Below are positions 2,316 to 49,022 of a DNA stretch of 64,000 nucleotides, one piece after another. The translations under genes were made by a program, and so were the position numbers. Source of the stretch: Gryganskiella cystojenkinii (lineage: Eukaryota > Mortierellomycota > Mortierellomycetes > Mortierellales > Mortierellaceae); contig JAAAIG010000091.1 of NCBI GenBank assembly GCA_015852425.1, forward strand, positions 1 to 64,000, read 5' to 3'. The notes beneath the pieces were generated by a model. That model worked only from the letters and a program-made list of their open reading frames with translations, did no database searches and was not told the origin of the DNA. Each line of letters starts with the position of its first letter. Positions within the stretch are counted from its first letter, which is position 1.

Positions 2316-2349
<34 letters not shown>

Positions 2350-2533: not shown

Positions 2534-5500
2534 ATGGCTCAGGGTCAAGGTCAGAGTCAGGAAAGAGACCTGGATCTGGATCTGGATAAGGACCAAGCAA
2601 GCATCTACCCACTGTTGCCTTCATTACCGCCACTACCCTCCTCAAGATCCTATACCTTTCAACCCTCTGCTCCACCTTCAGCACCCCCGGAACATTCTCC
2701 GCCGTCTGCGCCACCAACCGGCTCCTCCCTCTCCCCGTACTCTTGGCATGCCTCTTCCTTCAACCCATCAGGGCCAGATCTTCAACCGGACCGACTTTTT
2801 TCTGAACCCTCGGCACCTTCCTTCTATCCGGACATATACCCGAACGAACATGTGCCCTATCCACATCATGCCCTAAACGCTGCCCACGCAAGTCCATCAA
2901 CCTCCAATCATCAACAACAACCACAATATGAACCGGACGAGATAGCCTACCCACGGCTGAAATACAACTTGACCAGCCTATCTAGTGACCACTTGCTAAC
3001 CAACACACAACTCCAAGAAACCTACCAGAACGAATTCTTGAACAACCTACCACAACGACTTGCCCGGATCGAACACAGCTCCGGGACAACCCCTCAGGAC
3101 AGCGAGATGGGTGCCTTTGTAACAAAAATGCGCTCGTACGAGACTGCCTACGAATCCGTTCAACAATGTCGACTCGCGCTCTTCAATCTGGAACAAAAAG
3201 CCAAGGGGTACGCAAGAAAGCTGTGGACCGTCCAGTCGAAATCCGAGGTCGCCAAGGCCTCCTGTGGCGATGGTGCGACAATCTCGCACACGTACACGTA
3301 CCAATACGGTCACCATGAACCCGAGGTCGCACTCAAGCTTCAAAAGTCACTGAATCGACTGTTCAAGCAGCGGACAAAACATCTGGTCCGGATGCAGTTT
3401 GAGGAGACGTCTTGCAAGCTCTGGATCCAAGATCACCTGTCCTCGTATCTGCGTGTCCTCAAGGAAACGGGTCAATGTCAGGAGATCGATTTACAACGGA
3501 TCACAGGCTATCTGGATGTTTTATTTGGCTTTGAGAGGTCTGCGCGTCGGCAGCCCGATTTTGATCCATTGGTGGAGGGGAACACTGGAGACAAGACCAG
3601 CTCGCCCGCGCCGTCGAATTCAATCTTGGAACAAGCGGGACCAGAGGATGGAACAGACGCTCCAACAAACGCTATCCTGCGATCCATGCAGGATTGGATC
3701 ACGCTGATGGCTGCGTCACTATTGCACTTTGGCAGCTTCAAAGAGTCAGAGTACCTGATCGTTCAAGTGTTACGCTCAAGACGGATCTCCAAGTGGGCCG
3801 TCAGTCTGATCCAATGCAGTGTCCCCACCAACTGGTCTGTCGGATACCAAGAGTTTTATCTGACGACACTACAATTGGTTCTTTGCGGTACATCTACCCC
3901 ATTCTCTCGACTTTCCTCTGCCTTAGAGTCCACCACGGACTTGGGGCAGTCGAGTCTTGGTTCAGGACTGGACGAGGACGACTACCTTGCGATCCTAGAT
4001 CAGGTGGATGTCACCCTTTTCTTCAATCGATTGCTATTGGAGCACAAGGACATGTTCAACCAAGGCGGCACACTTTTTCAGACTGATGTCTCAAACCGAA
4101 CGACCCTTCGACTCTTTGCTGCCACCCGTCATTTCTTTGATGTTTTGCTACATGGGTTGCAAGTTTTGATCAAGTTTAGTGTGGCGTCCAGGAGGGTTGC
4201 ACAGATGTTGTGCCAATTGGCACAGATCTTTGGCGATCACTTGCTCGTTCTTGGGCCTATGTCGAAGAATGCTCAATATAGTATCTCTTATTCGGCCACA
4301 AGGCAAGTAACGCAGTTGGTTATCATGATCAAAGTCAGATGCATTTGTCGTTCTCAGTCTGACAGTAACTCTGACCACATCACTTATAGAACTACTGCCA
4401 TGAACATTCAAAGCGAACTCGATTACGTGTTTTCGGAAATACTGCGATCTATTCTGGCTCTACCTGGGCACGGACTATGGACGTTCTTGCCCTCGATCCC
4501 GTTCCAGTACATGTCTACTGACAGAGTCTCTCTGTTTATTGGAGAGATTGCTCTGCAAAATATTCAGGATCGAATCAACAACCCTGCTTCGCTCTTATCT
4601 ATGGAGCTCGATGAAAATAAGATGCGACTCACACTTGGAAAGAACCCTGGCGAGGCCTTGTTCCTCATTACTGCGCTCGCTCACATGGTCACCTCGAGGA
4701 AGTTTTCGCACGCTCGTCCGGAAGAGCCCTGGGACATGACTGAAAATTCTCTATCCCTGGAAGAAAGATTGGCTATGGTAATTACGTTTTTGGTTTTGGA
4801 TGTCGCTTACATCGACAGTGATATCCGAGGCGAACTTTCGAAACCAACACGGGAGGTTCTTGGATCAATGTGCGATTCGCATCCGAGAATTGTCTCGTTC
4901 ATCTTAAAGTTTGTCGAGAGACACTTCAAAGAGATTGGATCCGTGGCTGAATATGTTTTCCGTGTGTTACCGCTTGGTGATTGGGAGATGACTCGCAGCG
5001 ATTTTAACATTCTGACCGGACTGCTGGAGACGTCTCCGCTCAACTCGGCTGAGTCGCTCTTTGCTCGATCAGTGTTCATTGCTATTCCGTGGTCAAAAGG
5101 TAGGATCTTCTTTGACGGGTTGATACGATGACTCAGTGTAGAGTACCGGAAGGGAGTGAACTGACTTTTCATCCTCCGACATTGTGAACAAATAGCTGCA
5201 GTGACCAAGCATGGCGTGAGCAACAGCCAAAAGACCGTAATGGGTCGCTTCAAGATAGAGTTGGCCCTCGCTATGGCTGATATATGCTCAAAGAACCTGG
5301 GCAGCACCAGCACCAGCACCAGCAACACCAACAGTCAGGTCGATAACGTCCTTTTCGCCAAGGATTCACAGCAGAACAAACCATCCCCAACCTCATCTCC
5401 TTCGTCATCTTCCTCAACAGTGCGGATCAAATCACCTGAGCATAAGTCCACGCCGTCTTTTGCCTCCAGTCTACCCCATGCGATTACCAACCTTGCAGCA

Positions 5501-8500
5501 CACTCAGGTCTACAACTCTTGACCACGGATCAAGTGACCATGAAGGCGTTTATGGACTGGTGTTGGAAACTGGTTGTTGAACTCGAGCTTACCGAACTCG
5601 AGCCCTTGACCCTTGTTGAATCGTCTCGACTGAATGTGTCGGACCCAGGACTGGCAAAGTATCCAATGTTCAGTCAGGGGCAACTCACGTTTGTGAACAC
5701 GATCCGTCTCCTGTTGACCGAGGCCAGTCGCGACTCGGAACAGTTCCTCAAAGACGGATGGGCGACACTTTCTGCTGTCCTTCAAACTGGGATGGGGTCC
5801 GCTCTCCTGCACTTGGTTGCAGTCTTGGTGCCTCCACTGATGGCCTCGTCCGACAAAGCAGCTCACGCGACCAAGTTTGGAGCGCTCTTGCGCGAAGTTG
5901 CCAGCTGGAAACAAGACCCGATGTTATCAGAGGCAGGCATGAAAATGGCAGAGGGGCAACAAGGCGTGAATCTGTCCAAGACTGCCAAGGAATCCATTGC
6001 GTTCTGGGTGCTGCTCCAGCGACACATCGACCTCCGAACGGCCCTGGCCGCAACCTCAACTGATTTCTCAAAGGACACGATTCAGTTTTGGATCACCGCC
6101 ATCACCTCTCAAAAGGACTGGATGGCCCATCAAGACTGCGTTCAGATCATGGATGTGATTTGTCACGCTTGCTTCGAACTCGGCCTCGACACGTTTATCA
6201 AGGATCTTCTGACGGAACAACAGATTCTGTTATCAATCGGCTTCAGGAGAGCACCAGGCATGTCTGCAGAACTGATGGGGCTCGCTCAACCTGGTCTGGA
6301 CAAGGTTATGGACCTGTTGCCCGATCGCCTGACCAAAGCCCTGCCGGTTCCTCAAGGATCCAATGACCCGAGTTTATTGATGGGAACTTGGTCTGTGCGG
6401 ACATTTGCGACTCACCTCTGGACACAACAGGCTATGGTCGAGTCAAGTTCGATCTGGTTTGCGTATTATGCGCTCTTGGTCGAGACGAGTCTGGAAAAAG
6501 ATATGCGGATCAAGATCGGTCACTATTATCGTCAGCACTCACCAGCACCACCGTCCTCTTCCAAGGACGCCAACAGTAAAGCACTGCAGGCAAGCGTGAA
6601 TATCAAGACTGTGATGAAGACTCTTGGGATCACGAACCGAAAGACACTCCACAACTTTGCAATCTGGCGATGGGCTCAACACCTTTTGATCCTTCCGTTG
6701 GAGACTCCACTGTTGCCGCTTTTCTGGCAAATGTTCTTTTATCTCTATTTTGGCCATACCGAACAACGCGGTTTATTTTACGGACACAAGTTTTTGGAGG
6801 ACCAGCCCGAGATTGTGGACCAACTCCGGGACCGATTGTTGAAAACTTGTACGTATTTCGGTCAAGAGGCCCGTAAAGCCATCCAGGGACTGGATCTTAA
6901 TGCCGCAGAAAAATTGACAACGCTGCACGAATTCTATAACGCGCTTCATGGATGGATCAGGGAGCCTTTGCTTTTGAGCTCAGAGATTGACTTGAAGAGG
7001 ATTCGAAAAGATTTCTTGGTGGAGCGGTTGGTCTCTTGTCGGTTACCGGATCCGCTGGAGTGCAGTCCGGATCTCTGGAAGGACTTACTTTTGTTGAACC
7101 AGGCACCATCGACAGCTTCGGTCTCGTCGCCAAAGCCATCGTCTTTGGTGTCCATTCATTCACCCGCGACGTCTCCCAAGAAAGGTGGTCATCTGGACTA
7201 CGATCACTCTCGAGCGGCACGGAAACACGGTCAAGCATGGCAGGATCAAAAGATTGGCAATTGCCTCGTCAAACTGTCGAAACCTGCGCCGGACATGTAT
7301 ATCCCCAGAGCGCTGTTGCCTCCACCTGCGATCGATTACACTTATGCCAGTCCTCAGAGTCTTTTTGGATCTGCGACCAGATCAATCCAAGGGTATGGAA
7401 AGGGCTATCGGGACACGAGTGCTGCCCATCAGAACCTGGATGATCTCTATCTCAAGGAGCTTGGTGCCTTGTATCATAATGAGGTCAAAATTTCCAAGCT
7501 GGAAGTAGCCTGTGATACGACCCCGAACGCTCTATGCAAGCGTCCGGCCGTGATTGAGCTTCAGTACGAGACAATTGTGCTGAACGAGGGCGTACAGCGG
7601 TCGATTGTCGAGAATCGAGAGCGAGCCAGAGCACTGAGACTGGGTCATGCGGAACAAGGACTGTGCCTGGCAGCTCTAGAGATTTCCAAGACGGTCGATA
7701 CATTAATGAGGACCATTAGCCCAGATGAAAACCAGGGAGGTGCGGCCGCGGTTGGCAAGGTGACAAAACTTGCGGTCGAGAGTTTTTATTTCTTGCTCCA
7801 GGAACTCTTAGAAGACGCTCGGAACTACCCGCCAGCCCTAATCGTCCTGACGAGTTTGGTCCAGACACTGGGGATGACCGTTGTGGCCAAGGACCCTGCA
7901 CAGACGGAACCGATCTTAGATCGAATGAAAGCGACAGACGATTTTGCAATTTCATTGTTGGTCGAAACGTTCTACCCGGCCTCCACAAGACCTTCCTCGG
8001 AATTTGTTCGACTTTATGAACGAATTGCGACTTGTAAAGAGTACAGTCTGGCCTCCAAGGATCGATTACTCCGGCAATTTGACGTTCAGGCGTGGGCCGT
8101 GGACCCAACTTGTTCGAGTTCCTCAACATCGACCTCGTTATCGCCTACAGTTCAGGACCGTCTTTCATTTTACAAGGTCGCGTTCACGGCCATGGTGGCT
8201 CAGCAACAACTTCAGCGGCAAGACGATCAAATTCAAGAGGCCACGGAAATAAGTACTCGAGATCGGTTGGCCATCATCAAATCCCATCGAGAACTCGCGG
8301 GAACGCTGTTTCTGAATTTTTTGCAACAAGACTATATCGAGTATTTGAGGATCCTGTTCGACACCTGTGCGATAATGTGTTTAGAACCCGAGGTCCTGGA
8401 GGATTTCATTCGCATTATGGGAGTTGAGCCTCGATATGTCCCCGTGCTCCTGGACGGTGCGGATGTCGCTGCTGGATCACTGACGGAGGGAGGGTCTGGC

Positions 8501-11500
8501 GGAGGAAGAGGACGAGGTAATGGATCGAATGGTGGTGTCGATCTTGGAGGCAGAACGACCCGTATTGGTCTCTCCGACTATGATTTCGAGTACCTGGTCC
8601 GGTTCTTGGGCGACTATTTCAGAGATGTTCAGGATCGAATGATGGCACGAGGCAACTTGTTGGATCGGTATAGCGGTTATGCAGTCTCCATTGCGTCTTT
8701 GCTCACAGTGGTCCTGTGTGATGAACGATATTTTAACAAGTGGTTCTATACCCTGTCTGGACCGTCGTCATTGGGAGAGCCCTCTTCGATTCTCGCTGGT
8801 TCGCGATTATGGCGCGATATCCAGATCTTGTTCCGGCCTTGGTTCACCTGTCTGACCAACCGAGCTTCTGACGAGACACGGTTCCAACGGCAACAAGGAG
8901 GTGCGAGTCGGTTACTCTTTGTGTTTGTGGGCCTTGTCTCCAAATTGATGACTGCGGTCGAGCAAAACCATTACTACGGATCCACAAATCATGGTGCCCA
9001 GACGCATGACAATCAATTGGTGTCCAAGGTGTTTGAGTTTTACCTCGATCTGATCTTGGAGAGCTCACGGCCACGGCAAGACCAACAACAGCAGCAGCAG
9101 CAACAGCAACGGGCAGCACTAAACATCAACCAGATCATGGTCCTTCATCAACAGTTCCATCGACTCCCTTGGAAGGGACTGCGGCTGTCACGAGTGACCG
9201 TGGATCGGATTGTCGAGATCCAAGCGACATTACCGTCCGAGATCCGAATCGAGTTCTGGACATACCTGATCACTATCGTGATGGAAAAGGCCGAATCTGA
9301 CATGAGACCTGTTCAACGACCACAACAACAAGGCTCCGAAGCTGGAATGTTCCTCGGTTACAAACAAACACTGCATGTGGATGAGGACGAGCACCAATGG
9401 CGTCAAAACGAGATTTCATTCTTGAAACTGGGTCTGGCTGCTCTGCAGGAAGTCGAGACGGTCGTGGGGGACGACTCAGAGTTGCGGCATCAGGTCCTGG
9501 CGCGGTTGTGGAGGACGATCTTTGAGACGGGGTCTCCTTGGGACTGGCTCTTGACCTCTGATCTTCAAGGTTTGGTAAAATCCCTGACGACGCAGTGGGA
9601 TCGAGTTGGGACCTGGGATGATGTGACGAGTCCGATGGGTCGGGTCCTTTACTGGATGCGTGTCGCAGTTGGCTTGGAGGAGAGCAACATGGCCGATGAT
9701 GTTGGGGATGATGACGGCGAGGACGATCCACGCGCGCCAAAGCCGAAAGTTACCCATAAAGATCTCGATCCCCAGAGAGTGTTGATCTATTTCGGATACG
9801 TGCTCCAATTGCTTCAGACACGACTCTCATCTTCAGCCCAAGATTCTCAAAACAAAAACTTTGCCATGACGGCGATCCCGAGTGTCGTGGCTCATCTGGG
9901 CCAGGTTTTGGACAATATTGCAGGGGATCCGAACGAAGCCCGACACCCAGTGATTCATCGACCGTTGTTGACGCTTGTTGGTATCCTGAACAAGTGCGGA
10001 GGAAATCCAAAGGGCATGGAAACTCAGTTGACGCTGTCGGGGCTGACTGTCAGTGGTGCGTCTTCATCAGTCGAGTTCAGACTGCCTGCAACGTCACAGC
10101 CGTTTTCAATGGTGCTTTTGGGTCTTCAGCAGATGATCTCCACCCTGGAGGTGATCCAGCTTGACCTTGTCCGGGCTCTTTCCCAAAGACTCAACTCTGT
10201 ACCCGCCATGATATTGTTGCTCGAGGGATCGATTGAACGAGAGTTTGAGCTCTGGGGGTTTGAACACCAGGAGCGGTCTTTATCGTCGTCGTTGGCTACC
10301 GTTAGTGGTGGTGGGGGAGGGGGAGGATTATCCGGATCTGTCTTTGGATTGGAGGAAACGACGCTTCAATCCATGTCTCCGATCCCACATCTGGGTCATA
10401 TGCGGACTTTTTCAGGTCAAGGATCAGGGCTTTCCTCGGCATCCGTCGCTATCGAGGACTTGCAAGGACAAAGTCAACAACGTCGTCAGTCTTGGAAAAA
10501 GATCCAATCCCAGCTGGAGACACCGGAATTGAGCGAGGACGAATTTCTGGAAGAAGGCCAGAGGATGGGTGCAGTACTGACGCTTCATGGACGATATCTC
10601 CAGTTACTCGAGGGATCATCGGCTCCCGCCGGTGTCGATGAGGACGAGGAAGAGTTGGATGGCATCCAAACCTTTGATGAGATTTTGGAATTGGGTCAAG
10701 AGCTGGCCGAGGTCATTTCCAAAGTCGATTTGCTTACAGCCGAGAACGCACCGGAAGAGGAAATTGAGAAGAAAAGACACAAGGCGTACCAGAGTCTGTT
10801 GCTAGTCCGGATGTTCTTGACTATGGTCGCGAAAGAATCTGTTCATAGGTATGTTTTTTTTCACTATTATTGTTGTTGTTGATCGCAGAGTTGAGGCATC
10901 GGATCCCTATTTTCTTATTAATGACTTAATCTGCAACTCTATTCGGTATATTCATCATCAACACAGTGTCCTTCAAAGTCGGTTCCTGAGCTCGGTGATG
11001 CAGGTCTGCAGGACTCTGGAGACATGGTGTCAGGACAGTCGGGACTGGTCCAAGAAGAGTATGTTAAGCTCTTTGGGGATCGGCTCGACAAGTCGCTCAC
11101 GGACCCTGGACCCTCGGTTCCGCCTCGTGGTCCGGATCATTTACACGTATTTGGTCGTCCGTCTGGCGGACAAAGGTCTGTCGATCCATCAGAATGCGGC
11201 CGGCGGAGGCAGCGTTTTGGCCTGGCGCAAAGGTCGGCAACAGAGCATTGATGTGTCAGGTGCAACGTCTCCTCTTTCGAGTATGAGTAAATTTAGTAGC
11301 AGTAGCGGAAAGGATGCCAGCTCGGTCTTAATCGAGACATTGGTTCAATTACCGGCCAAGAACAAGGATTACGCCGCAATCTTTGTCAAGTCAGCGACAT
11401 CGTCGTCCTCCGCATCTCTCGTAATGCCCTCGAGACCCTCACCTGGCCCAGGAGAGGCAGTGACCGCAGCGGCTGCGACGGTAGCCTCGGCAGCTATGGC

Positions 11501-12098
11501 AATTCCAGTCCGTTTGATTGCTTCGTCTGTGTCATTGTCGTCCTCTTTGTCCATGTCACCTCAGCCTTCCACGTCCATGATGGCATCGTCTCCGACAGGG
11601 TCTTCGCTATCATCGTCTCCACCATTGCGAAGCTGGTCATCATCGGTTCCGACCGTTCCCGGAGGCAACTTTAATCATCATACGAGTCAAAAGAGAATGT
11701 CGATGCAGAGTCAGCACTCGTCAAGGCTTTCGATCAGTAGTTGGGATGAGAGCTCTGGCGCTATCTTCAAGTTGGAGGAAGAGAGTGGCGGCAGCGGTGG
11801 TGGTGGTAGTCATTTCAACCAGCTGCTTCCGCCTCTGCCTCCATCGACACCTCGGAGACTGGATCGTGAACGACAGAGGGCTCGTAAACTTTCGCTACAG
11901 AATCAGGCGCAACAGCAGCATCGACAGCAACAACAGACCAAGGGACAAGGAGGACCAGATGGTACCAAGAACGGACTTGCGGATCTGGAGTGGGCTGTTG
12001 AACAGATCCGGGATCGTCGGTTCCGGATCTTGGAGGCAGCCGAGATCTTGACGGAGGTGTTGGATCGGTTTTATGAACGAGATGTGTTCTTTGTATAG
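2534..12098 (+). CDS. EPG5-like autophagy tethering protein
   Basis: Probable homologue of EPG5, the Rab7 effector that tethers autophagosomes to late endosomes/lysosomes in animals. Three exons (2534-5099, 5196-10848, 10967-12098) join in phase to 3116 residues; human EPG5 is about 2580. Collinear similarity to EPG5 (from memory) runs along the whole length: RRISKWAVSLIQC near residue 420; LPLGDWEMTRSD near 815; TIQFWITAITSQKDW in the middle; IWRWAQHLLILPLETPLLPL near 1345; LPWKGLRLSRV near 2180; ELSEDEFLEEGQRMG near 2630; RFRLVVRIIYTYLVVRLADK near 2790. The N-terminal 100 residues are Pro/Ser-rich and disordered. Extra length comes from insertions: a short polyQ near residue 2150, a Gly run, and a Ser-rich stretch near the C-terminus. 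The rest looks like an alpha-solenoid. No catalytic motif is expected. The homology call is strong; the cellular role here is inferred. Confidence 0.85.
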
Positions 12099-12530
12099 GA
12101 TTTTAAACCAACAAAAAGTAAACAAAAGAAGCAACATTCGGAACGAGGGCCGAAAATGACTTTCGGAGCAAACTCTTGCAACCAATGCTTTGCTTCCTTT
12201 GCTTCGTACTCGTATTGAGTACCTGCATTCGCAACTTTTTTTATTTGTTTAAAAATAAGAGGGAGGTCGATGGTCTGCTGGTCATATGACATGATGCGAT
12301 GACCCACAAAAACAGTTCATATCTGCGCAAAAAAAACTCGATCGCTGGCAACCTATCTCGAGTTACAGGGGATGCAAAACACAGCCGATATTCCTTGCCC
12401 GTTATATTGTCATCGCGTTCTTTGCCATGACCACATTCATTTGCCACCCATTGTTCATTACTCTTCATTTCATTTCTTTCATCCTTACCTCTGGATACCA
12501 ATCACTCGCACACACACACCCTTTCTCGTC
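12099..12530. other. Intergenic region, EPG5-like 3' end to Sel1 gene
   Basis: This holds the 3' flank of the EPG5-like gene and the promoter/5' UTR of the Sel1-repeat gene. A long pyrimidine-rich, CA-containing leader precedes the chosen start. I see no further gene. Confidence 0.5.
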
Positions 12531-14684
12531 ATGACTGCCCTCGCTCGCTCTGGTTTCCCTCGCCTTGCCAACATCACCCGTCCTGTTGTGTCCATTCCTT
12601 TGTCACCGCTTGCGCGTCGCACCCTTATTCAAACGCATCTCTTTCCCGTCATCACGCACCCTTCGGTTCATGGCTCGAACTTAATTGTTCGTCATACGCC
12701 ATTTGCATTCACAGCCTGTCACTCGTTTTCGCAAAAGTCTGCCTCAAGCCTCCCCAATGAATTAGAACAAGTCGATTCCCTGGAATGGATTCTGAAATCT
12801 GCCGACCAGGGCGATGCCAACGCTCAATATAAGCTAGGCGTCCGGTACTACGATGGTGAAGGCGTTCCAACGGACACAGCCAGAGCTATGGAATGGCATT
12901 TGAAAGCCGCCAACCAGGGACATTCACACGCTCAGTTCGTCATAGGAAAGATGTACTCTGAAGGTCTGGTAGTTCCACAAAATGAATCCACAGCCATGGA
13001 ATGGTATTTGAAGGCAGCTAACCAAGGAGTAGCAGAAGCTCAGCTCAACGTCGGCATCATGTACCGTAAAGGCTTAGGTGTTCCAAAGGACGACACCAAG
13101 GCCGTGGAATGGTATTTGAAGGCAGCTAACCAAGGACAAGCAGATGCTCAGATCAACATTGGCGTCTTGTACCAAAGCGGCCTGGGTGTTCCAAAGGATG
13201 ATACCAAGGCCATGGAGTGGTATTTGAAAGCTGCCAGTCAAGGACAGGCTAAAGCCCAGTTCAACATTGGCCTCATGTACTCGAATGGCTATGGTGTTCC
13301 AAAGGATGACACCAAGGCCATGGAGTGGTATTTGAAGGCTGCCTGCCTAGGTGATGCCATGGCTCAATTCAACGTTGCCTATATGCATGACAAGGGCCTT
13401 GGTGTTCCACAAAGTGATTCCCTGGCAATGGAATGGTACTTGAAGGCTGCCAGTCAAGGAGAGGCTAAAGCCCAGCTCCGCGTTGGCATCATGTACCATG
13501 ATGGCCAAGGTACTCCAAAGGATGACACCAAGGCCATGGACTGGTATTTGAAGGCTGCTTGCCAAGGTGATGCCATGGCTCAATTCAAAATTGCGTCTAT
13601 GTATGGCAATGGCCATGGTGTTCCTCGAGACGCTTCCAAAGCCATGAGATGGTATTTGAAGGCAGCTAGCGAAGGACAAGCAGATGCTCAGCTCAACATT
13701 GGCGTCATGTACCATCACGGTAAAGGCGTTCCACAGGACAGAACCAAAGCCATGGAATGGTATTTGAAAGCTGCCAACCAGGGAGAATCACTCGCCCAGT
13801 TTAACATTGGCCTCATGTACTCAAATGGCGATGGTGTTGAAGAGGATAAATCCCTGGCTATGGCATGGTATCTGAAGGCAGCTAGTCAAGGACAAGCTAT
13901 GGCTCAGACCAACATTGGCACCATGTACCATAAAGGCCAAGGTATTCCAAAGGATGACACCAAAGCCATGGAGTGGTATTTGAAGGCTGCCTGCCAAGAT
14001 GATGCCAGGGCCCAATGCAACATTGCCTATCTGCATGACCGGGGCCTTGGTGTTCCGCAAAGTGATTCCCTGGCAATGGAATGGTACTTGAAGTCAACTG
14101 CCCAGGGATATGCGACTGCCCAGCACCGACTGGGTTGCAAGTACAAGGATGGTGATGGTGTTCCAGAGGATGCCTCCAAAGCCATGGAATGGTATCTCAA
14201 GGCTGCCGAACAAGGCCATTCCAGTGCACAAAACGACATTGGCTTTTTGTATTTATCTGGCAAAGGCGTTCCACAGGACAATTCCAAAGCCGCAGAGTGG
14301 TGTCTGAAGGCTGCCAACCAAGGACACCAAAGTGCGCAGTTCAATATGGGCAACCTGTACAATGATGGTCGAGGTGTTCCAGAAGATGGCTCCAAAGCCA
14401 TGGAATGGTATCTCAAGGCTGCCGAACAAGGTCATTCCGGTGCACAAAATGGCATTGGTCTTTTGTATTTAGCTGGCAAAGACGTTCCGCGGGATATTTC
14501 CAAAGCCGCAGATTGGTGTCTGAAGGCTGCCAACCAAGGACACCAAAGTGCCCAGTTCAATATGGGCTTCATGTACAATGCTGGCCTAGGTGTTCCGCAA
14601 GATGGTAAAAAAGCTAGAGAGTGGTTTTCAAAGGCCGCCATCCAAGGACATGTTGGGGCGCAAATAGAGTTAAGCAAGTTTTGA
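12531..14684 (+). CDS. Sel1-repeat protein with mitochondrial-type presequence
   Basis: Scaffold-type solenoid protein of 717 residues made almost wholly of Sel1-like (TPR-related) repeats. I count 17 full 36-residue units from about residue 93 onward plus a partial last one. The unit consensus is AMEWYLKAA-nQGqa-AQ-NIG-MY-nG-GVPkDd. The open frame continues upstream to 12372, but the Met at 12531 is preferred: it starts a leader rich in Arg/Ser/Thr and free of acidic residues (MTALARSGFPRLANITRPVV), typical of mitochondrial import, while the upstream part lacks this character. Repeats 14-15 and 16-17 are a recent 216-bp duplication. There are no introns, unlike most neighbours. Sel1 proteins usually mediate protein interactions; the partner is unknown. 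Chitin-synthase regulators also carry Sel1 repeats, but nothing here specifically supports that role. Confidence 0.85.
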   Translation: MTALARSGFPRLANITRPVVSIPLSPLARRTLIQTHLFPVITHPSVHGSNLIVRHTPFAFTACHSFSQKSASSLPNELEQVDSLEWILKSADQGDANAQYKLGVRYYDGEGVPTDTARAMEWHLKAANQGHSHAQFVIGKMYSEGLVVPQNESTAMEWYLKAANQGVAEAQLNVGIMYRKGLGVPKDDTKAVEWYLKAANQGQADAQINIGVLYQSGLGVPKDDTKAMEWYLKAASQGQAKAQFNIGLMYSNGYGVPKDDTKAMEWYLKAACLGDAMAQFNVAYMHDKGLGVPQSDSLAMEWYLKAASQGEAKAQLRVGIMYHDGQGTPKDDTKAMDWYLKAACQGDAMAQFKIASMYGNGHGVPRDASKAMRWYLKAASEGQADAQLNIGVMYHHGKGVPQDRTKAMEWYLKAANQGESLAQFNIGLMYSNGDGVEEDKSLAMAWYLKAASQGQAMAQTNIGTMYHKGQGIPKDDTKAMEWYLKAACQDDARAQCNIAYLHDRGLGVPQSDSLAMEWYLKSTAQGYATAQHRLGCKYKDGDGVPEDASKAMEWYLKAAEQGHSSAQNDIGFLYLSGKGVPQDNSKAAEWCLKAANQGHQSAQFNMGNLYNDGRGVPEDGSKAMEWYLKAAEQGHSGAQNGIGLLYLAGKDVPRDISKAADWCLKAANQGHQSAQFNMGFMYNAGLGVPQDGKKAREWFSKAAIQGHVGAQIELSKF

Positions 14685-34277: not shown

Positions 34278-37200
34278 ATGTCTGTCCCGACAAAGTTCCG
34301 TATCCAGGTCATTGTCGATCCCGAAGAGGACACGACCCAGCATCAACAGCAACAGAACGAGACCCGTTTCCTCACCCTCGCCGAGGGTACGACCACTGTC
34401 GCCGACCTCAAGACCAACATCCGTCACAGATATAAAAAACTCTTCAATGCTGATGGGTAAAGTCCTTTTTAATTTTTGAAGGGGACTATTACTATCGATG
34501 ACTGACAAACCCCCCCCCCCCGACATGTCATAAAAGTCATCGACAATTAACAGCTTGTATCCCTATTCTATATCCTGCCCCTTTCTCTACAAAAACACAC
34601 AGCGAGATCAAAGTTATCAAGAACAAGAACGGATTTATTCTCGACGACGAGTTTATCGTTGAGGACGTCTTGGAGTCCTTGGATGTTGTCACTGTCTCTG
34701 GACTCGGCTCCAATTCCACTTCCACGATAGCAGCGCCTGCCCCATCATCATCATCTTCATCAGCTTCACCTTCTACGTCAACCTCAGCGTCATCAAAACC
34801 ACACCTCCCTCCAGTATCGACAACAACAGCAACGACACCTGCAAAACGGAAACAGAAAAAAGTTGCCAATACATCCGCTCCTTCAACTCCTCCAGCCCCT
34901 TCGCCTTCAACCTTACCCACCTCTGCTACTTTGCCATCAACAGTAGTTTCAATCTCAAGAGCTTCGACTGAAGAAGCAGATGACGCGTTTGAGGTCTTGT
35001 CGGATGAGGCTCTTGCTGGCTTGTCAAAGCACGGACGAAGGCGGTATCAAAGGAGATTGGCTAGTGTCCAGGCCAAGTCAGATCAGAGTCCTACTCTATC
35101 CTCCGTCAGCGACAAAAATATCGACAGGACGACAACGACGACGACTACTCCTGCTGCATCAACTTCAGCTGCCAATTCAATTGCAACAGCACAAGCCCAG
35201 GACAAGGTCAAGAAAGGCAAGCAGCCAACCGTGACCAAGGAACAGCCCGCAATCAAGGACATTGACTCCTCGAGCACAAAGGCTAAACCTGCAGCGAAAA
35301 CATTATCAGCGTCAGCAGTAGCAACTGACGCAGAGGCCCTGGCTGCTGCCGATGCCAAAGCCGCCGCTGCCGCACTCACTTCTGCTGCCGAGACAAAACG
35401 TAAGGCTGCCGAGCAAGAGGAGAAACGTCAAAAGGAAGAGACTAAAGCCCTGAAGAAGAAACAGGAAGAGGAATCCCTGGCGCACAAGAAGCAGCAAGTC
35501 GCTGACGAAAAGAATCGAGAACTGGAGGCTCTGAAACAAAAGCAGGCCGAGAGTGAGAAGCAACGGTCAGCGGCTGAAACGAGGATCAAGGACGTTGAAG
35601 TCGCAGCTCCCTCCGCACCTCTGGAACAGGCGAATGAAGAACTTCGTAATCGTTGGATTGCTCACAGGGATGGAAAGGATGTCGCGGCTATTTCCGCCCC
35701 CACCACTACCGCAGCTACCGTAACCGTCGCCACCACAACCCCTGTTACTGCCCCTATTACCATCGCCCAGGAGCCTCAAGCCGATAGTGAGGAATCCGAA
35801 ATGGAAAAGAGGGCTCAGGACACCAAACGGAAAGAGGATGATAAACTCGCCAAAGCCGAGGCCAAACGGATCAAGACCGAACAGGCCGCAGAAAAAAAGC
35901 GTGTTGCATTGGAAGAAAAGACTGCTAAAGCTGCGGAGAAGGCCAAGGTCGCCGAGGAGAAGAAGCGCTTGGCAGCGGAAAAGAGAGCTGCGGATGTTGA
36001 AGAAAAGAAACGTCTCAAGGAGCAAAAAGCTGCAGAGAAGGAGGCATCGGCCGAGAAGGAAACGGAAACCAAGGTTGCCGAGAGCACACAAAAGTCGACT
36101 AACGCAGCCGTTGAAGGACTTGCAGCAACATCCGTGGCAACAGGAGCCTCCAAGGCCGTCGAGGACAAGGCCCAAGAGAAGCGAAAGGGCAAGGCAGTTA
36201 CAGAGACGAAGGAGGCTATTTCTGCTACTACCGCCAAGGAAGTCAAGGCAGTCACGGAGGGCGGACGCGCCCCACGCAAAGCCAAGGATGCCGGCGAACT
36301 CAAGCGCAAGACCGAGGAGGCCAAGCTTCTCGAGTCCATGAACAGTGGCCAGGATGCCGATGATCTTGCATCAAAAAACTTTGGGGAAATTGAGGCGGCG
36401 CTCTATGACCTTGTTGACAGAGCGGAGAAGGAGCAACGGGACGCTTTGGTAGCAAATGCGTCCAGATTATCCATTTCATTGGAGCCTTCAACACCGTCGG
36501 CGATGGAGGACAGCCTCAAGAAGCGCAAGTCGGATCAGGTTGCAGTGGAAGAAGCGACCGAGAAGGCACCTACTGCTACCACCGTTGTCGCGGCTCCTGC
36601 TAGCCCTTCCAAAAAACGGAAGAACTCGTCGACAGCAACCGCTGCGTCGGCCACTGCTGCAGCATCGCCTTCCACCTTGGAACACGTTGTGGAGGAGGAT
36701 GCACATAGCCAGACCTCGGTACCGCCAAAGTCCAAGTTGGCCCTGGCTATTAGCACTGCTGACGAGGTGGCCAAGAAATTGACCAAAGCTGCGACTGAAG
36801 CCAAGAAGCAAGCCCGCCGAGCAAGTCTTGATCTTGAAGCCCACAAGGCGGCCACTGAGGATGCCAACAAGAAGCAAAAGACTGCACCCAAGGAAACTGC
36901 TGGTAAGGGTGTTCGCGTTTGACGCTATTTTTATGCTTGTCGTCTCAAACGATGGTTTGAATCACTGGTTGTATTGACACTTTATATTGTGCTATTCCTT
37001 TAATAGCCAAGGCTAAGGATATGGAGTCTACCCCAATGGATGTCGACACTGAGGTCTCTTCGTCCTCACAAACCAACAATGTCGACATGCAGAAGGAAGA
37101 TGCAGAGGAAGCAAAGAAGGTTGCACCTGCATCGCCAGCAAAGTCCAAGGCGGCGGCCGCTAAAACAGCCAAGACCGAGAAGGCTGACAAGGTGGCTCCT

Positions 37201-39024
37201 GCTTCACCTGCAAAGACGAAAGCCGCTGAGAAGAAGGCCGCTGCCGAGAAGGTCGCCCCTGTTTCACCCTCGAAGTCCAAGAAGGAGACTGATGCAGCTG
37301 CTACTCCTGCCGCAGCCAAATCATTGAATGCCGCAGCAGTCACACCCGTCTCATCCGCAGTATCGTCTTCGACTTCGGACTTGGTCAAATTATCCCATGG
37401 TCTTACAACAACTGTCAAGGATGAGATCGAGGCTCTTGAGTTCTTGAAGCAGAAACAAAGAGCCTTTGAACAACAACAGCACCGTGGCACACCTCCTCAC
37501 CCACTCGCACCTGGCTCGCCTCTCCCACCAACACCTGTGAAGATGATGGCGAATAGCAATATCGCCAGTGGCAGTATTACCGGTTCTCAAGGTACCCGTT
37601 TGCGTCGTGTCTCGGATTCGAGTTCTCAATCAGACGAATCAGATCGGGATGAGGATGATTCCGATCGTGAGGATATCTCAACCCCGACCATGCCTCCTAT
37701 GGTCGGAGCTTCGAGATCCAAGAGTGTCTCGTCATCCATCACCGCCAAGCCTGTTGTCAAGAAAGGCACACCTATTGGTCTTGCCATCTCGACCCCTGTT
37801 CCAGTCGTCGTCGCCGCGGCGCCCATCTCTGTTCCCGAGCCGGACTCGCCCCCACCAAGAGAACCCATGCACCGGAAATCGGTCGTGGAAAACTTTTTGG
37901 GATCCGATTTCGAGGATACTTTTGATGTTACACCCACAGATCTTGGTAACCTGACGGAAGTAGAGGAAGAAGAGGAAAAGTTGATCCGTCATCGCAAATC
38001 CATTGCCAAGATCGTCCCCATTGTCGCCTCTGTTGACTCGGATTCTACAAGTTCGGATTCGGATGATGAGGACGAGTCCGAGGACGAATCTTCAGAGGAT
38101 GAAAGCAAGGTCGAGGCCAAGGAACCCAACGGTGTTGCAGTTGTCAAGGCTGCCAACAGTACCCCCAACGGTGTCGTCAAAATCAACGGCTCCCCTATGG
38201 CCAATGGACAAGTCAAGGTCACCCCTGTTTCCAAGACTGCTGTCGAGGACAAGAATAAGCTCAACAGCAAAGCCCCCATTACTGCCAAGGAAGAGGACTC
38301 AAGCAGTGATAGCGACAACAGCAGCGACTCGGACGACTCTGATTCTGATTCTGGCGCAGACTCTGATGCCGAGGATAGTGACGACGAGAAGGATGGAACC
38401 GCGACCAAGCGCCGGGTCTCTGTCACAAAGCCTGCGACTCCGGCGTCATCCTCTTCAGTTTTGTCTGGCATGTTGAGTCTCAAGGGTGCGAACGGCAGCG
38501 CCACCAAGCCAGCAGTGACATCCCCATCCAAGCCCGTCTCCAAGAGTCCGTTTGGAGCTTTACCCTCGCTCTTTGGTAATGCAGGCGGTGCGCCCGGCTT
38601 GATGTCTCTGTCGAGTATCTCGGCCATGTCAGCAAAGAACGGTCTTCAAAACATTTCCTCGTTGTCACAGATGGCGGCTCAAGGTCGTGCAAATAAGAAG
38701 ATGGGCTCAATTGGATCTGCAATCGGATCGGCTTCTTCTTCGCCTTCATCGTCAACGAACGGAAGTGGGCTCAATGGAACCCACAACACTGGTGCGAACG
38801 GCAAGCAAGACGAATCTTCGGATGAAGAGTCGGAGGATGACGAGGATGATTCGGATTCGGACGTTGATAGTTCGGATGAAGAGGCTCAGGCGGAACAAAA
38901 GAAGCGCAAGGCCTCGGCGTCGATCAAGATTGCAGGAAAGAAGGCCAAGACCGATAGTAGCACCAACGGATCTTCTCCAGCCAAGAAGAAGAAGAAAGGA
39001 GGAGCCATCAGTGCCTTGTTTTAA
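34278..39024 (+). CDS. Net1/Dnt1-type nucleolar protein
   Basis: Large, mostly disordered nuclear protein whose N-terminus resembles the domain shared by S. cerevisiae Net1/Tof2 and S. pombe Dnt1, nucleolar proteins that hold Cdc14 phosphatase and organise rDNA silencing. Three exons (34278-34456, 34603-36902, 37007-39024) join in phase to 1498 residues. Residues 1-95 carry the domain: KFRIQVIV, RFLTLAEGTTTVADLK, then across intron 1 EIKVIKNKNGFILDDEFIVE and VLESLDVVTVSG. The middle is a long Ala/Lys/Glu coiled coil or single helix (about 330-520). The C-terminal third has acidic Ser/Asp clusters (SSSDSDNSSDSDDSDSDSG), typical CK2 targets of nucleolar proteins, and ends in KKKKKGGAISALF. Functional equivalence to Net1 is inference; SRP40/Nopp140-like composition is the alternative reading of the C-terminus. 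Confidence 0.75.
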
Positions 39025-39177: not shown

Positions 39178-42100
39178 CTATAACGACAGGAGATCATCGA
39201 GTTCCTTGAGATGATCCTTCAGATTCGAAAGTTCTTGCTCAAGGGTTTCCAGTGCGTCAACTAAGGTGGGGTTTACCTGTCTCTTCTCCTTGGGTGCTTC
39301 TTCCTCCTCATCCTCGTCGTCGTCGTCTTCCTCATCTGACACGTTGTCATGCAACGAGTCGCCGTCACTAGTCTCTGGGCTTGAGTGGAATACTTCTTCT
39401 TCTTCATCTTCTTCATCGTCCTCCTCATCGTCCTCCTCATCTTCCTCGTTTTCTTCCTCGTCTTCTTCCTCTTCCTCCTCTTCCTCCTCGTCCTCCTCTT
39501 GGATTCGAGCCCGAGCTCTTTGGACCCACCTTTTGTGGACCTTAATCTCGTTCAGGACATGATCCCGGATCGTCGTTTTGTTCAGATGAATAAACTCGGT
39601 GCAGAACGCGACCAACTCGGCCGTGCACGCCAGTCGAGCATGCTCTCGAATCTCAAAGACGTTCCCATGACTGATCATGTCATCCGTTGCCGAGGACATG
39701 ATCAATTCCTTTGAGATCAACGACTTGAGTCGTCCGAGGCCATAGAGGTCAGCTGCAGCCAGGAGTTCCATTAAATACTGGACACGATCCCGCAATTGCT
39801 GTTCGTCCTCGTCGACAATATCTTCTCCGTCTTGATCTCTTTTGCTCTTTCTGGTCTTTTTAGCATCTTCATCCTTCAAAGCTGTGGAAGGAGTTGACGT
39901 CAACGATGATGCTCCGTTGGTTTGGATCAGCCTGTCCGTATAAAGGTAATACAACACGCCCCAGAAGCGATCGTATTCGGCTTCGCCTTCGATCGCAGTG
40001 GAGAGATCCACGACCGTCAGACCCGGATTCTCTGGATCCTTGGTCGTGAACTCGGACCACGGTCCCGTAAACCGCGCCGTGAAATGCTCGCTCGTATGGG
40101 TCAGCACAAATTTATGAGCCAGGATCGATTTTTGAGTCTTTTTGCCTCTAGCCCATCCGTCTCCTTGAGAATCCGAGTCGATAGTAAACGTAAACTTGAC
40201 GTCCATGAATCCCATGACCGTATCTTGCTTCTCAAAGGACTCGACCAGCTTCGTTTCCAAGGCACCGAGAGTACGACCAGGTGGGACCTCCACCAAATGG
40301 CCTTGTACTCGCTTCATCTCGGGGACACCGACCGCGACCAAAAACGTTCGGAACGCCAACAGTGTTTGATCTACCACCTTGTGATGCTCTAGGTTGTTCT
40401 CGATGTCCAACATGAGCTGATTAGGTCTCAGCCAGTTCGCGGAAACGGTTGGGTCAAGATCGCCATTCAAAATAAAAGGAATACCGTCCAACATCGTCTT
40501 CACTTTAGAAGGAAACCACGTGAACCTCTTACTCTCCCTCTCGAACCGCTCGTACAACCTGAATAATGATGTTTTGAACATGGATCGCTGCTCCATGGAC
40601 TTCCAAGATGGCGCCAGGTCTCTTACGAGTACGCGGAAGTGACTCACTATCTCATTCGCGACCGCACTGCCAGTAATGTTGGAATGGACCTTCTTGAAGT
40701 GCTCTGGTGGTTCGAGATCTGCTGGGTAATATGCACACTGTGTCCACGTTTCGCTCTTCCAATAGCCTCTCCTGAGATCCTTAAAGGGCATGAAGGTCGG
40801 TAGTCCGGAAGGCGCCCAAAGGCTCTGGGCAGGATCCGTCGTCAGTTCAGCTGGGACAATCTTCCACTTTATATCGCTCCAATCAGTCAGGTTTGGGGTT
40901 GATGCCTGATGGCTCGCGCTCTGTTTGTAAATGCGCTTTACCAGCTGAATGGCAAGAGCACACAGCTTAGAGCTACTGTTGGCTGCTGTCACTGTCGGGC
41001 TCAGAGTTCGTTGTTCAACTGGCAAACGGCCAATCAGCTCCATTAATTTCTCAGCTGCCATTGCCACAATAACTTCTTCTGTCATTTTCCTGACCGGAAA
41101 TAGAGCATCTCTATTCTCACGATCGAGCGTCAGCCAGATGCTTGAATCTGGAAATATCCCCTGATCGTCTCGATAGAGAGCTGCCAGCAACGAATCGTCA
41201 GGATCGAGCAAGTCGCAGCTCCGGGCAAATCCGTTCCTATTCCTGGGGATTAGGGCTGTCGAGGTCAGGAAGGACTTGTGCTTGTGTGGGGTAGAACTAC
41301 CTCCATCAGCAACGATGGCGTTCAAAAGATTCGTGTAGGCGGATTTTTGTTCATCGCTCAGAGAGGTCGACTGCGTAGTCAGTATCGGGAGGACATAGTT
41401 TTGCAAGATGATCTTGACATGCGAGCCTCTCGCCCCAAGCTTCGAAAGGATGCCGTTTCGATCACAGTCCACATATCCAGGATAGTTGATAATCAAGGGG
41501 AAGGACCCAAGCGCATCCAACTCAGTCTTGAGAGACGCGACTGGGAAATAAGATCCAGTCGCACAGATCAGTGGCGCACTCGATTCCGATGAATAGGACT
41601 CCCAGATCTTGAATCGACCCAGAAATTTCATAATGTTGCTGGGGATATCTTCCTCCGTCATGATCCAGTTCCGAAGAGTAGCCGCTTCGGCAGTGTTAAA
41701 CACATAGTCTTGCTCCCAGCCCTCTGTCTCGCTCAAACAAACCAGGACTTGGACGGGAGAGTAATAACATTGCCTCGTGATGGCTGGGTGTCCATCATAA
41801 CTCGAGAAGGGGAAGATCGGGATGTTCTCCTGTACTAGCAGGTTCTTGAGGATCTCGCATTCGCTCGGTACATGGTTGTCCTCCAAAATCAGTCCATACT
41901 CGGACGCCCTCAAGGATTCCATACCGCCCCACGAGTTCTTCAGGACTCTGAGTTCCCCGAACGGCTTGAGGTCGGTGTAGCCGCGAAGGAAGGTCCAAAC
42001 TCGATGCAAGAGAGCATTGTCGATGGCCCCTGGATTTTCTTTGAAGAATACAGTCGTGAACTGCTCCGGCTTCATCTCCTGGGCGCAGTACCGGTGGTTC

Positions 42101-45100
42101 TTATCCGTAGTCAGGTGCTTCAAGATCTTTTGTAACGTCGGAGTATTGAACAGGTCCTCGTTGATCAGAGAGTCGCGGCCGATGATGAGCTGACGCATTT
42201 CGGCACTAGCTGTGTAATACGTGCTATCGCCTGCGCGGGCGACCTTCCACTGACCATTGCACAATGGGATGATCGCCAGGTCTGCGATTGAGGGATAAAT
42301 GTCGGTATGGGAGTCGAGAACATCCTGGAGAGTGCGCTCGAGAAACTGGCTCTGGCCCTCGGCGGTCGTAATTTCCAGAGGTATAAAGTCGGGCCGAACA
42401 GCCAGGCATTGCCGAACAAGTGCTGGAGTCACTTCCTTGAGACTGGCGAAACAGCTGTTACTCCATGCGCCTTTGACATTGGTCAACGCAAGTCCAGGTA
42501 GTTGACAAATGGCCTGTCCACTCGAGACGAGCATTTGCAGAACCTTTTGTTGAAGTTCAGACTCGAGCACGAAAAACCCACGGTCCAAAAAGACAGCTTC
42601 CAAAGCCGATTTCGCCACGAGAGTGCGATTCTTACCCTGACAAGGGAACACAGGACACTGATAAGTTTGCTTCCAGAACTCAACCCAGCTCAACATGCCG
42701 GCCTCCTCTAAAGCCTTATGCTTGGGCAAGTATTCGAAATACTGTCTCGTGGCATTTTCCTGACTATGGGTCGTCTTCTTTGGCATCGCGTCAAAGGTTG
42801 CAATGAGGAACTTGAGCAGAATCGCGAACGCCCTGCTAAGATGCATCGGCAATAATATCGTCTTCAGGGTATCGTTCCATCGAGCGCGCGCATCGCCGGC
42901 TCCCGTGACACCGCCGGAGAGACCCTTGCGATTGGACAGAAGCGCAAAAACTCCATGGAGGTGGAACCTTGTCTCCGTCTTGACAGGCGTTGGTAGGTGA
43001 ATGAAAACACGTCCCTCCATAGAGAGAAGAGATGAATGCGACTTTGTGCCCGGAAGGAACAAGGGGAACGCAGTGCCGCGTTCTGGAGTCCATCGATTCT
43101 CGTTGGCGAGCTCTATGATACTTCGAGACGTGAGAAGCGGAAACTGCGACTCTGTGCAGACCAACCAGTCTTGGCTCGTGTTTTGGTCGCTGCAGCTGAC
43201 CTGAATCTGGATGAGGCGTGCCATCGCTGCTTCGGGCATGATTGTTTGTCCATGAATGGCCTCGACCGTTGAGCCGGCAGTCTTGTCCAATTTTTTCGCA
43301 TTGCATTGGAAGACTCCAGCCTGGAGTTCAATTGTCTTCATGTTTTTTAGGAACAACATCGAGATCTCGGTTTCCTGCTTCCAGTCCGACATCATGTTTT
43401 GGACGCGTTCCACTGTCCAAGCACTGTCTCCGAGCGCATGATCGATCTTAGGGAGCTTGGATTTTTCAGGAGTTCGCAACGGGAGACGAAAGATCGTACC
43501 CTTGAAGTGATTCTCCATGTCACATCCAAACAGTCCCTTGTAGGGCGCTAGTTGATCAGCAAAAGTAGGTCCCTTCAGTTTCCGGAAATCGCAGCGAACA
43601 CCGCCCTCAGCCACAAATCCGTGAGACGTCCGAGACTTTGGCAGGTACGCCCTATGCGGATCAAAAAAGCCGATGTGGGTACCACTGACGACGCTCGGTA
43701 CATCTGTAAAATGGTAAACAGAGTTGAAACCCAAGCCATGGCGACCGATCTTTGTCGTGTCCTCACCTGTGTTGCAATAAAATATGAGAATTTAAGGTTA
43801 ATGGTGGTTTCTAGAAATAATGGTCTGTACATTTACAGCAGCATGTTATCGTTAGTATGTCTTCCTTACGTTTGTTTCCGACACCAAGCTTGCACAACGC
43901 GCGGAAATCTTCTTTGGTGAACTCGGCGTCGTTGTAAACGATCAAAGCCGGTCCCTGACAAGCAGCCATCTCGGGTGAAAGGATTGACTCTTTATCAAAG
44001 GAGCGCTGATCCAACTTGAAGATAAACTTGGACGCACCAGCATCCTCGGCATTTTGAAGAAACTCGTGAAAGATGCTGGATGGGTCATAGTCGTTCAGGA
44101 TGTTCTTGATGCGCTCGACAATGTTTTCTTGCTGAGCCCAAGGTTGTAGGTCCGGATCCTTCTTGGCATGCCAATATTGCGTCGAAAGCATCGTGATCCT
44201 GAGTTTCTTGGCGACATCATGAGAGATTTTTGAGCTGGCCAGCGTATATGTGACCTCGTCATCATCTTTCCAAAGATCAGTGGCCTCTTGGCTCGCATTC
44301 ACGTCATCAAAGACCACTTTTTCAATGGAGCAAAGTCTCGATTCTTGTGTGAGCACAAGGAGGCCCTTGAGGTCTCCAAGGTTGCTTGAACGTGCAATTT
44401 GTGTCAAGACTCCAATCACAAACATCGAATCCTCCTCTGACAGAGTTGTTGACTCTTCATTCAGGCCATCTGTGGACTGATCTGCGAGTTCTTTAATCAT
44501 GCCTTGCAGATCGCCCTCCTTAACAAACTCGGGCACACCCATGGCTCGGAACAAAGCATCAAGTTTCGAAGATGGCATTTGGACCGATCTCGGTGCCAGA
44601 AATGGCGGCATCTGGAAAGCTACGCGGTTTGTCGCATAGAGTCGTCGGTTAACAAGAATCCACTTCCGTGATCTAACAGTTTCCTTTACCCGCGCCAGCA
44701 CCTCGGGGTCGTCGACGCGACCAAGGAGGTCGCTATAGATGGCTTGCAAAGAGTCTTCGTTCAAACTGCTGGATGTTGTGGTCTGAGTACTCGGCTCGAT
44801 CAACTGCAAAAGGTGTTGGAGAACCTTTTCCAAAGGAGGTGACTGATGCCATCCAAATGCTTTCGACATCGTATTATTCGAAATTGCGGCCTGCAGTATT
44901 GGCATAGTCGTGCCCAGTAGAACACGGTCTTCCTGCGGACGGCACTCTCTAGGCGTGTAGAGCTGAGGATCTAAACCACCCACGGACGCGGGGATCCACT
45001 TGTAATTATTCATTGTATAGATGAGCTCAGGTGACATGTTCAAGTCGGTGCAATAGCTTTGCATGCGTGCAAAAAGCGCTTCGGCAACGCCAACAGCTGG

Positions 45101-48100: not shown

Positions 48101-48509
48101 TTTTTTTCAGAAGTCTTTCTGCCTTATTTCGTTGCTGTCGGTACCTATTAAAGCCGATGCCCATCTGGCCAATCTTGCGGTTATCGTCTCTCTTGCCACT
48201 GGCGGCCAGACTCATCAGCGAGACAAAATCCTGTTTCTCAAACAGGGAGTCGTTTCCAGCCAACAGAGCGGGTCCCATGTACTCTTCGAGTCCAGCTTGA
48301 AAGAGCTTGTCCTGCGGATGACTGCGATGGTCGAGGAGATACCATTGTCGAGTCGAGCCAGCATCCTCGCTGTTTTGGAGCAACTCTCGAGCAATCTGGG
48401 TTCCGTCCGGGTATTCGCCAAGAATGCCGGCAATACGTCTCGTCAGAGGCTCGGATACCTCGAAGGAATCAAAGCCTCCGTTGTTGTCGCTTTCCCCTTG
48501 ATAGAGCAT
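39178..48509 (-). CDS. Sacsin-like chaperone with C-terminal BTB domain
   Basis: Giant protein related to sacsin, which combines Hsp90-like ATPase modules in repeated units. Five exons (48509-48145, 48026-47726, 47631-46451, 46355-43870, 43766-39178) join in phase to 2973 residues. Two Hsp90-type (GHKL) domains are visible. The first, residues 1-180, has RELLQNSEDAGSTRQWYLLD and MGIGFNSVYHMTDSPSFLS. The second, near 1365-1560, has HEFLQNAEDAGASKFIFKLD and GLGFNSVYHFTDVPSVVSG, followed by GTHIGFFDPHRAYLP. Both keep the Glu/Asn of the N box and the G-x-GFNS motif. Residues about 2630-2850 form a BTB/POZ domain with BACK-like helices (ILAHKFVLTHTSEHFTARF; YYLYTDRL; AADLYGLGRLKSLISKEL). A very acidic tract and a terminal coiled coil follow. 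BTB suggests a Cullin-3 adaptor; sacsins of animals end in other domains. An upstream in-frame Met at 48782 is less likely as the start. Confidence 0.88.
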
Positions 48510-49022
48510 ATGTCGTTTTGTGGTTGTATTGTTATGAGTGGTGCCTGAGTGCTGATTATGCAAGGGTATAGGTTGTGTGTTTTGTTCCTTGGTTCCGGTG
48601 CCACTGCACTTGTTCTTCTTGAAGGGGTCGGTAGAACAAAACGACGACAGCAGTCCAATAAGGGTAAACCGGCGGAGAGAGGAAAAGGGGCGGTGTGTGA
48701 AGGAGAAGAAAAAGAGACGGAAAGGGAGCTGCGATGAATTACAAAAAAATACAGAAACAGAGTTTGAGTTTTTAACAGTCACAACTTTGGCTGAGGCAGG
48801 GGCTTAAGCTTTTTTATTTTTGAGTTAGAGCGCTGTTGCAGGATGACAAAAAACGGATGACGGGATGATGGTTTACATGGGCGCATGGGATGTGTTTATT
48901 AACATTACTCTTGACGTTTTTGTAGATGACAAACAGGTAGAAAGATAGTATAAATAAACAGAGATCAGAATGGGTATACGAACTAAATGGTTTAACAAAA
49001 AAAAAAAAGAACCTTTTCTAGT
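48510..49022. other. Intergenic region, sacsin-like 5' end
   Basis: About 510 bases holding the promoter/5' UTR of the sacsin-like gene and the 3' flank of the first membrane-protein gene. An A tract lies at about 48999-49010. No other gene is seen. Confidence 0.5.

Follow-up and report, generated by a model that had tools for sequence, protein, structure and literature searches.

EPG5 is a large helical protein, which as a Rab7 effector recognizes the GTP form of Rab7 and as a SNARE-assembly tether stabilises STX17-SNAP29-VAMP8 complexes. In animals it is recruited by Rab7 to late endosomes and lysosomes, where it functions as a tether, and it attaches to Atg8-family proteins of the autophagosome and helps SNAREs to assemble (PMC12005284, PMC7935953), while the Drosophila orthologue has been found to bind both Rab7 and Rab9 (PMC4232348). 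Human EPG5 binds GABARAP and LC3 by way of two LIRs, 550-WTLV-553 and 567-WILL-570, and binding of GABARAP is abolished in the W550A/W567A double mutant; the same source gives loss of EPG5 as the cause of Vici syndrome and calls EPG5 a metazoan, indeed a metazoan-specific, protein (PMC7935953). A second system that bears on the present work is ESCRT-I, since its subunit TSG101 recognizes the P[ST]AP motif with its UEV domain (PMC8232796, PMC5680296), and TSG101 has furthermore been linked to amphisome-lysosome fusion (PMC4670916). Among the papers listed from the open-licence literature, a body of work that subscription papers mostly fall outside, none is by its title on a fungal EPG5, and no report of either a missing LIR or a P[ST]AP array in such a protein was found among them.

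The EPG5 gene of Gryganskiella cystojenkinii and its relatives

The window, that is the whole stretch of 64,000 nucleotides analysed from contig JAAAIG010000091.1 of G. cystojenkinii, carries at 2534-12098 (+) a three-exon gene, which when spliced from the window (2534-5099 + 5196-10848 + 10967-12098) gives a product of 3116 residues with one terminal stop. Exon 1 (2534..5099, +) is an open frame encoding residues 1-855 and the first base of codon 856, exon 2 (5196..10848, +) is likewise open and has 36 database relatives besides the protein itself, and exon 3 (10967..12098, +) includes the stop codon. Both intron 1 (5100..5195, +) and intron 2 (10849..10966, +) are of the GT..AG type. For intron 2, the acceptor giving an exon start at 10967 is preferred to another in-frame AG, that before 10889, whose use would lengthen the product by 26 residues, because seven relatives aligned beside the protein have no insert there. 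The spliced product agrees letter for letter with entry P0001 of NCBI, named 'Ectopic P granules protein 5 [Gryganskiella cystojenkinii]', and the coordinates and length given in the original prediction are thus correct; by the same token the EPG5 identity is already on record under that name, and the protein is not an unrecognised homologue. Its 3116 residues compare with 2541 for the human isoform P0040, and the protein thus has the large size, roughly 2500 residues, that goes with the EPG5 family.

As for the surroundings of the gene, a CT microsatellite is found at about 2319-2346 (+), some 190 bases before the start codon of EPG5, and a histone deacetylase domain (PF00850, E 4e-46; 854-1408, -; a single ORF scanned) marks an upstream gene that points away from EPG5. 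Directly downstream, 12303-14681 (+) encodes a protein with 17 Sel1-repeat stretches. Further along the window, two ORFs of 806 and 687 amino acids (34502-36919 and 36961-39021, +) have no Pfam match at E 0.001, and the region 39181-49844 (-) holds long ORFs, three of which match the sacsin-domain family PF25794 (E 7.7e-35, 2.2e-28 and 1.8e-32) and two of which have no match; this region is possibly one very large sacsin-type gene. A RasGEF-domain ORF (52290-54845, -) and a polysaccharide deacetylase ORF (60378-61295, -) follow.

With exon 2 as query, 37 proteins including P0001 were retrieved at E<=1e-3 from 7982 scored candidates, and 27 of these 37 are named EPG5, six are called 'hypothetical protein' and four are without a name. 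They are filed under nine genus names, namely Gryganskiella, Entomortierella, Haplosporangium, Dissophora, Mortierella, Podila, Linnemannia, Lunasporangiospora and Actinomortierella, and the eight other than Gryganskiella we take to belong to the Mortierellales. Identity to exon 2 is 41-64% for the named relatives, P0001 excluded, and 41-70% when the unnamed records are counted as well. A second query, taken from a conserved part of the protein of Mortierella alpina, returned 38 of 128 candidates and added one protein, from Actinomortierella wolfii. The protein-database search reaches relatives that share exact five-residue words only, and since it missed vertebrate EPG5s that are present in the database, absence from other lineages is not to be inferred from searches with fungal queries.

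The idea that the gene is animal DNA brought into the fungal assembly by contamination or misassembly has a practically negligible probability, and nothing was found that speaks for it. It is ruled out by the spread of relatives over nine genus names, at the identities just given, and by the neighbourhood, in which RasGEF, polysaccharide deacetylase and Sel1-repeat proteins are ordinary company for a fungal gene, and the G+C content of the gene region (0.49-0.52) furthermore lies inside the range of the window (0.42-0.54).

Collinear homology with vertebrate EPG5

Vertebrate EPG5s were reached by way of an approximate human query, which is 97.7% identical to the human isoform entry and 98.3% identical to a gibbon entry, and the conclusions drawn below rest on the database sequences themselves. 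This query gave 471 matches, and among the 120 listed 118 carry a vertebrate organism and two (P0109 and P0126) are without a name. Compared directly by BLASTP, P0001 and eight vertebrate proteins align in collinear pieces of 19-25% identity with a best E of 1e-22. A profile of 30 Mortierellales sequences found all of eight vertebrate EPG5s in hmmsearch with E values from 1.8e-71 to 5.4e-88 (Z 200,000), and for the approximate human sequence, reversed or shuffled 200 times, the profile search reported no match. When profile was compared with profile in hhalign, using 30 Mortierellales sequences (26 retained by the program) and 11 vertebrate ones, the outcome was a probability of 100 and an E of 5e-97, the match forming a single collinear path 2224 columns long that runs from column 1 to 2709 of the fungal profile (2899 columns) and from column 211 to the last one, 2651, of the vertebrate profile, and the best E obtained with the vertebrate alignment reversed was 0.22.

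Weak alignments between large helical proteins can arise by chance, and given the helicity generally ascribed to EPG5 it could be argued that the similarity is that of generic alpha-solenoids without common descent. We see next to no chance of this, because the fungal and vertebrate profiles meet at E 5e-97 along a single collinear path as against 0.22 for the reversed control, and in addition a 22-row fungal profile found nothing at E<=10 among 177,635 distinct PDB sequences, helical-repeat proteins included. Generic helical repeats are therefore rejected, and the Mortierellales gene is by collinear homology a member of the EPG5 family. The original prediction, which had named a profile search as its check, is thereby borne out in its main point, namely that an early-diverging fungus has a genuine EPG5 homologue of full length. 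Its further statement that the match is collinear from end to end holds in so far as one path covers nearly the whole fungal profile, but not for each residue, since the posterior probabilities sum to 687.7 over the 2224 columns, which means that much of the path is uncertain at that level, and since the N-terminus is weak. Indeed the weakest zones in hmmsearch are the N-terminus and profile columns of about 1765-2380, with 0.8-5.4 bits around columns 1765-2034 in seven vertebrates and nothing reported from there to about 2370.

A joint alignment of 43 rows was made from 32 fungal sequences (those of more than 2200 residues within P0001-P0038, six shorter ones being dropped) and 11 vertebrate ones (taken from the 120 listed of 471 matches), and it has 225 columns in which 95% or more of the rows having a residue agree. 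The three motifs in which EPG5 had originally been recognized all align with vertebrate EPG5 here, RISKWAVSLIQC (3782..3817, +) with GVSKWAVPFIQI, IWRWAQHLLILPLETPLLPL (6662..6721, +) with IYRWAHQALVTPSDHPLLPL, and ELSEDEFLEEGQRMG (10526..10570, +) with ELTMEEFLQECLTLG.

Precomputed Pfam annotation places PF26573, PF27737, PF27745, PF26103 and PF26106 on vertebrate EPG5 and all five on fungal proteins as well; P0001 itself has PF26573, PF27737 and PF27745, and is without PF26103 and PF26106, which many of its relatives have. In a local Pfam scan P0001 matched none of the five families (the local copy being without PF26103), and when three whole proteins were scanned locally against Pfam and NCBIfam, no more than two matches came up, each under its cut-off. 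Searching the PDB by sequence with fungal exons 1 and 2 and with human EPG5 gave no EPG5 match, and the weak matches to the fungal exon and human EPG5 queries (E 0.07-0.94) look like chance.

The tandem LIR site and the N-terminal P[ST]AP array

Both LIRs are present in 11 of 11 vertebrates, the second one reading WMLL in platypus. The homologous loop of the fungal protein, located by alignment at 3887..3973 (+), is without a W-type LIR, and W-x-x-[LIV] occurs in this loop in none of the 31 fungal sequences that span the site, the 32nd (P0034) being gapped. The loop is shorter in fungi, and the block following it is kept, as human NEDDLVTIL is aligned with fungal DEDDYLAIL (3971..3997, +). In 26 of 32 fungal sequences this block agrees with the minimal LIR pattern, and it may be an Atg8-binding motif; it is nonetheless not claimed here as an alternative LIR, since its vertebrate counterpart is probably helical and since Cys replaces Tyr in five fungal sequences. 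Within the loop itself FSRL of P0001 fits the minimal pattern, but without acidic neighbours, and so does YSAL of P0023, which is directly followed by Glu-Asp, both of them lacking Trp. Because the tandem LIR is absent from all 31 spanning fungal sequences, the half of the animal mechanism that faces the autophagosome is not kept in the form known. The interpretation offered with the original prediction is accordingly only partly upheld, in that the full-length homologue is there but the Atg8-binding tandem LIR of the animal Rab7/EPG5 route is missing. Judged from the alignments, the fungal protein retains the long body without the known autophagosome grip, and the missing LIR is a feature new to the existing records.

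The N-terminus of the fungal protein differs in another respect. P0001 has PSAP at residues 44, 48, 57 and 92, all within an N-terminal low-complexity stretch, which from its composition is presumably exposed. The first two motifs (residues 44-47 and 48-51; 2663..2686, +) lie in the block TFQPSAPPSAP, which is found in P0020 and P0038 also, and the third (residues 57-60; 2702..2713, +) and fourth (residues 92-95; 2807..2818, +) are pattern matches, the four columns of the latter being common to 13-14 of 18 aligned rows. In these 18 rows, which were selected for having the motif and on which the conservation figures rest, the first PSAP is identical in every one, compared with a mean of 0.56 over residues 1-180 (columns not mostly gaps). 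Among the 32 fungal sequences three have no N-terminus anchor and five have fewer than 60 residues before it, which leaves 24 that could be counted; P[ST]AP is present in 18 of these and in two of the anchor-less sequences (P0020 and P0038, the third, P0007, beginning inside the anchor region), hence in 20 of 32. The motif is never found downstream of the anchor (0/24), six of the 24 have none at all, and it does not occur anywhere in the 11 vertebrate proteins. Shuffling led us to expect 1.5 motifs, in 1.4 sequences, where 65 are observed in the 24 N-termini, though the force of this test is overstated as it takes related sequences as independent. Some of the 12 sequences without the motif have close relatives with the block, as in M. 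alpina, where P0023 is without it and P0008 and P0015 have it, and several of these 12 entries may therefore be shortened gene models. The array is conserved, and to judge by the aligned N-termini it is, like the missing LIR, a new feature relative to existing records.

The fungal counterpart of TSG101 is Vps23, and the array predicts that fungal EPG5 binds it. It may then be asked whether the protein, while of the same family, has another job, working mainly in endosome and multivesicular-body traffic with ESCRT-I and not in tethering autophagosomes. This we regard as possible, if on the unlikely side: it is favoured by the fact that all 31 fungal sequences spanning the homologous site are without a W-type LIR there, and by an array that is absent from 11 of 11 vertebrates, but Atg8-binding motifs that are unmapped may exist, the DEDDYLAIL block being one that fits the minimal pattern, and collinearity is kept through the core of the protein.

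We consider it fairly probable that the protein is the Mortierellales orthologue of animal EPG5, inherited by descent, and that it serves as a tether of the late endosome and vacuole that is recruited by Ypt7 and ESCRT-I and promotes fusion. In such a mechanism a long and presumably helical tether would reside on the late endosome or vacuole, to which it would be brought by the fungal Rab7 (Ypt7) and, through the N-terminal P[ST]AP array, by ESCRT-I as well; it would help autophagosomes or endosomes to fuse with the vacuole, and it might perhaps engage Atg8 by means other than the tandem LIR. From the sequences compared, engagement through ESCRT-I rather than through the animal LIR pair appears most likely. 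As this explanation leaves the cargo membrane open, it overlaps with a main role in endosomal traffic, and the likelihoods that we attach to the two are not exclusive.

Age of the family and comparison with known systems

In an approximate, midpoint-rooted tree of the 43 rows, which are Mortierellales and vertebrates only, the fungi and vertebrates separate, with Actinomortierella outermost on the fungal side. The sequences of Podila, Dissophora, M. alpina and Actinomortierella each come together, one 'Mortierella' falls inside Podila, and those filed under Entomortierella, Haplosporangium and Mortierella do not form single groups. Human and Gryganskiella are 3.97 substitutions per site apart, Gryganskiella and Actinomortierella 1.36, and human and turtle 0.39. 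Tree and distances fit an old gene in the Mortierellales, one that the common ancestor of those sampled, at the latest, would already have had.

Inheritance from a common ancestor with animals would most simply account for the origin of the gene, and the protein family may then be older than animals; if inherited, EPG5 is dated before them. That the ancestor of the Mortierellales instead acquired it from an animal or some other non-fungal eukaryote is quite improbable. Searches with fungal queries gave only Mortierellales wherever an organism was named, as such a transfer would have it, but the exact-word searches missed vertebrates in the database too, and absence elsewhere is not demonstrated by them. 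Furthermore, any transfer would have to be old given the distances above, and fungi outside the Dikarya are described as keeping an animal-like TORC1 pathway (PMC11836306), which also tempers the surprise of finding another animal-like component there. On the inherited reading one may speculate further, though we think it rather doubtful, that the ancestral EPG5 was an ESCRT-I-linked tether of late endosomes, to which the tandem-LIR grip on Atg8 was added on the animal line. If true, fungal EPG5 would show the tether before its dedication to autophagosomes. In any case the Mortierellales offer a fungal system for testing the role of EPG5 without the animal LIR pair.

Compared with the EPG5 of other Mortierellales, the protein of G. 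cystojenkinii is the product of the same gene, with the LIR absent from all 31 sequences spanning the site and the P[ST]AP block shared by 20 of 32; the 12 deposited models without the N-terminal block differ from it, several of them having a later start. HRS and ALIX are ESCRT-I ligands with P[ST]AP, and fungal EPG5, known here as a predicted ligand, resembles such proteins in repeating the motif in a low-complexity stretch, whereas sequence homology with them is not expected. With animal EPG5, of which human EPG5 and C. elegans EPG-5 are examples, it has in common collinearity over nearly the whole length, the near-invariant columns and, by precomputed annotation, Pfam families, three of the five in the case of P0001. 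Unlike the animal protein, the comparison being with vertebrate sequences only, it is without the tandem LIR and has the N-terminal P[ST]AP array, and it furthermore contains several low-complexity stretches that are poorly conserved even among the fungi.
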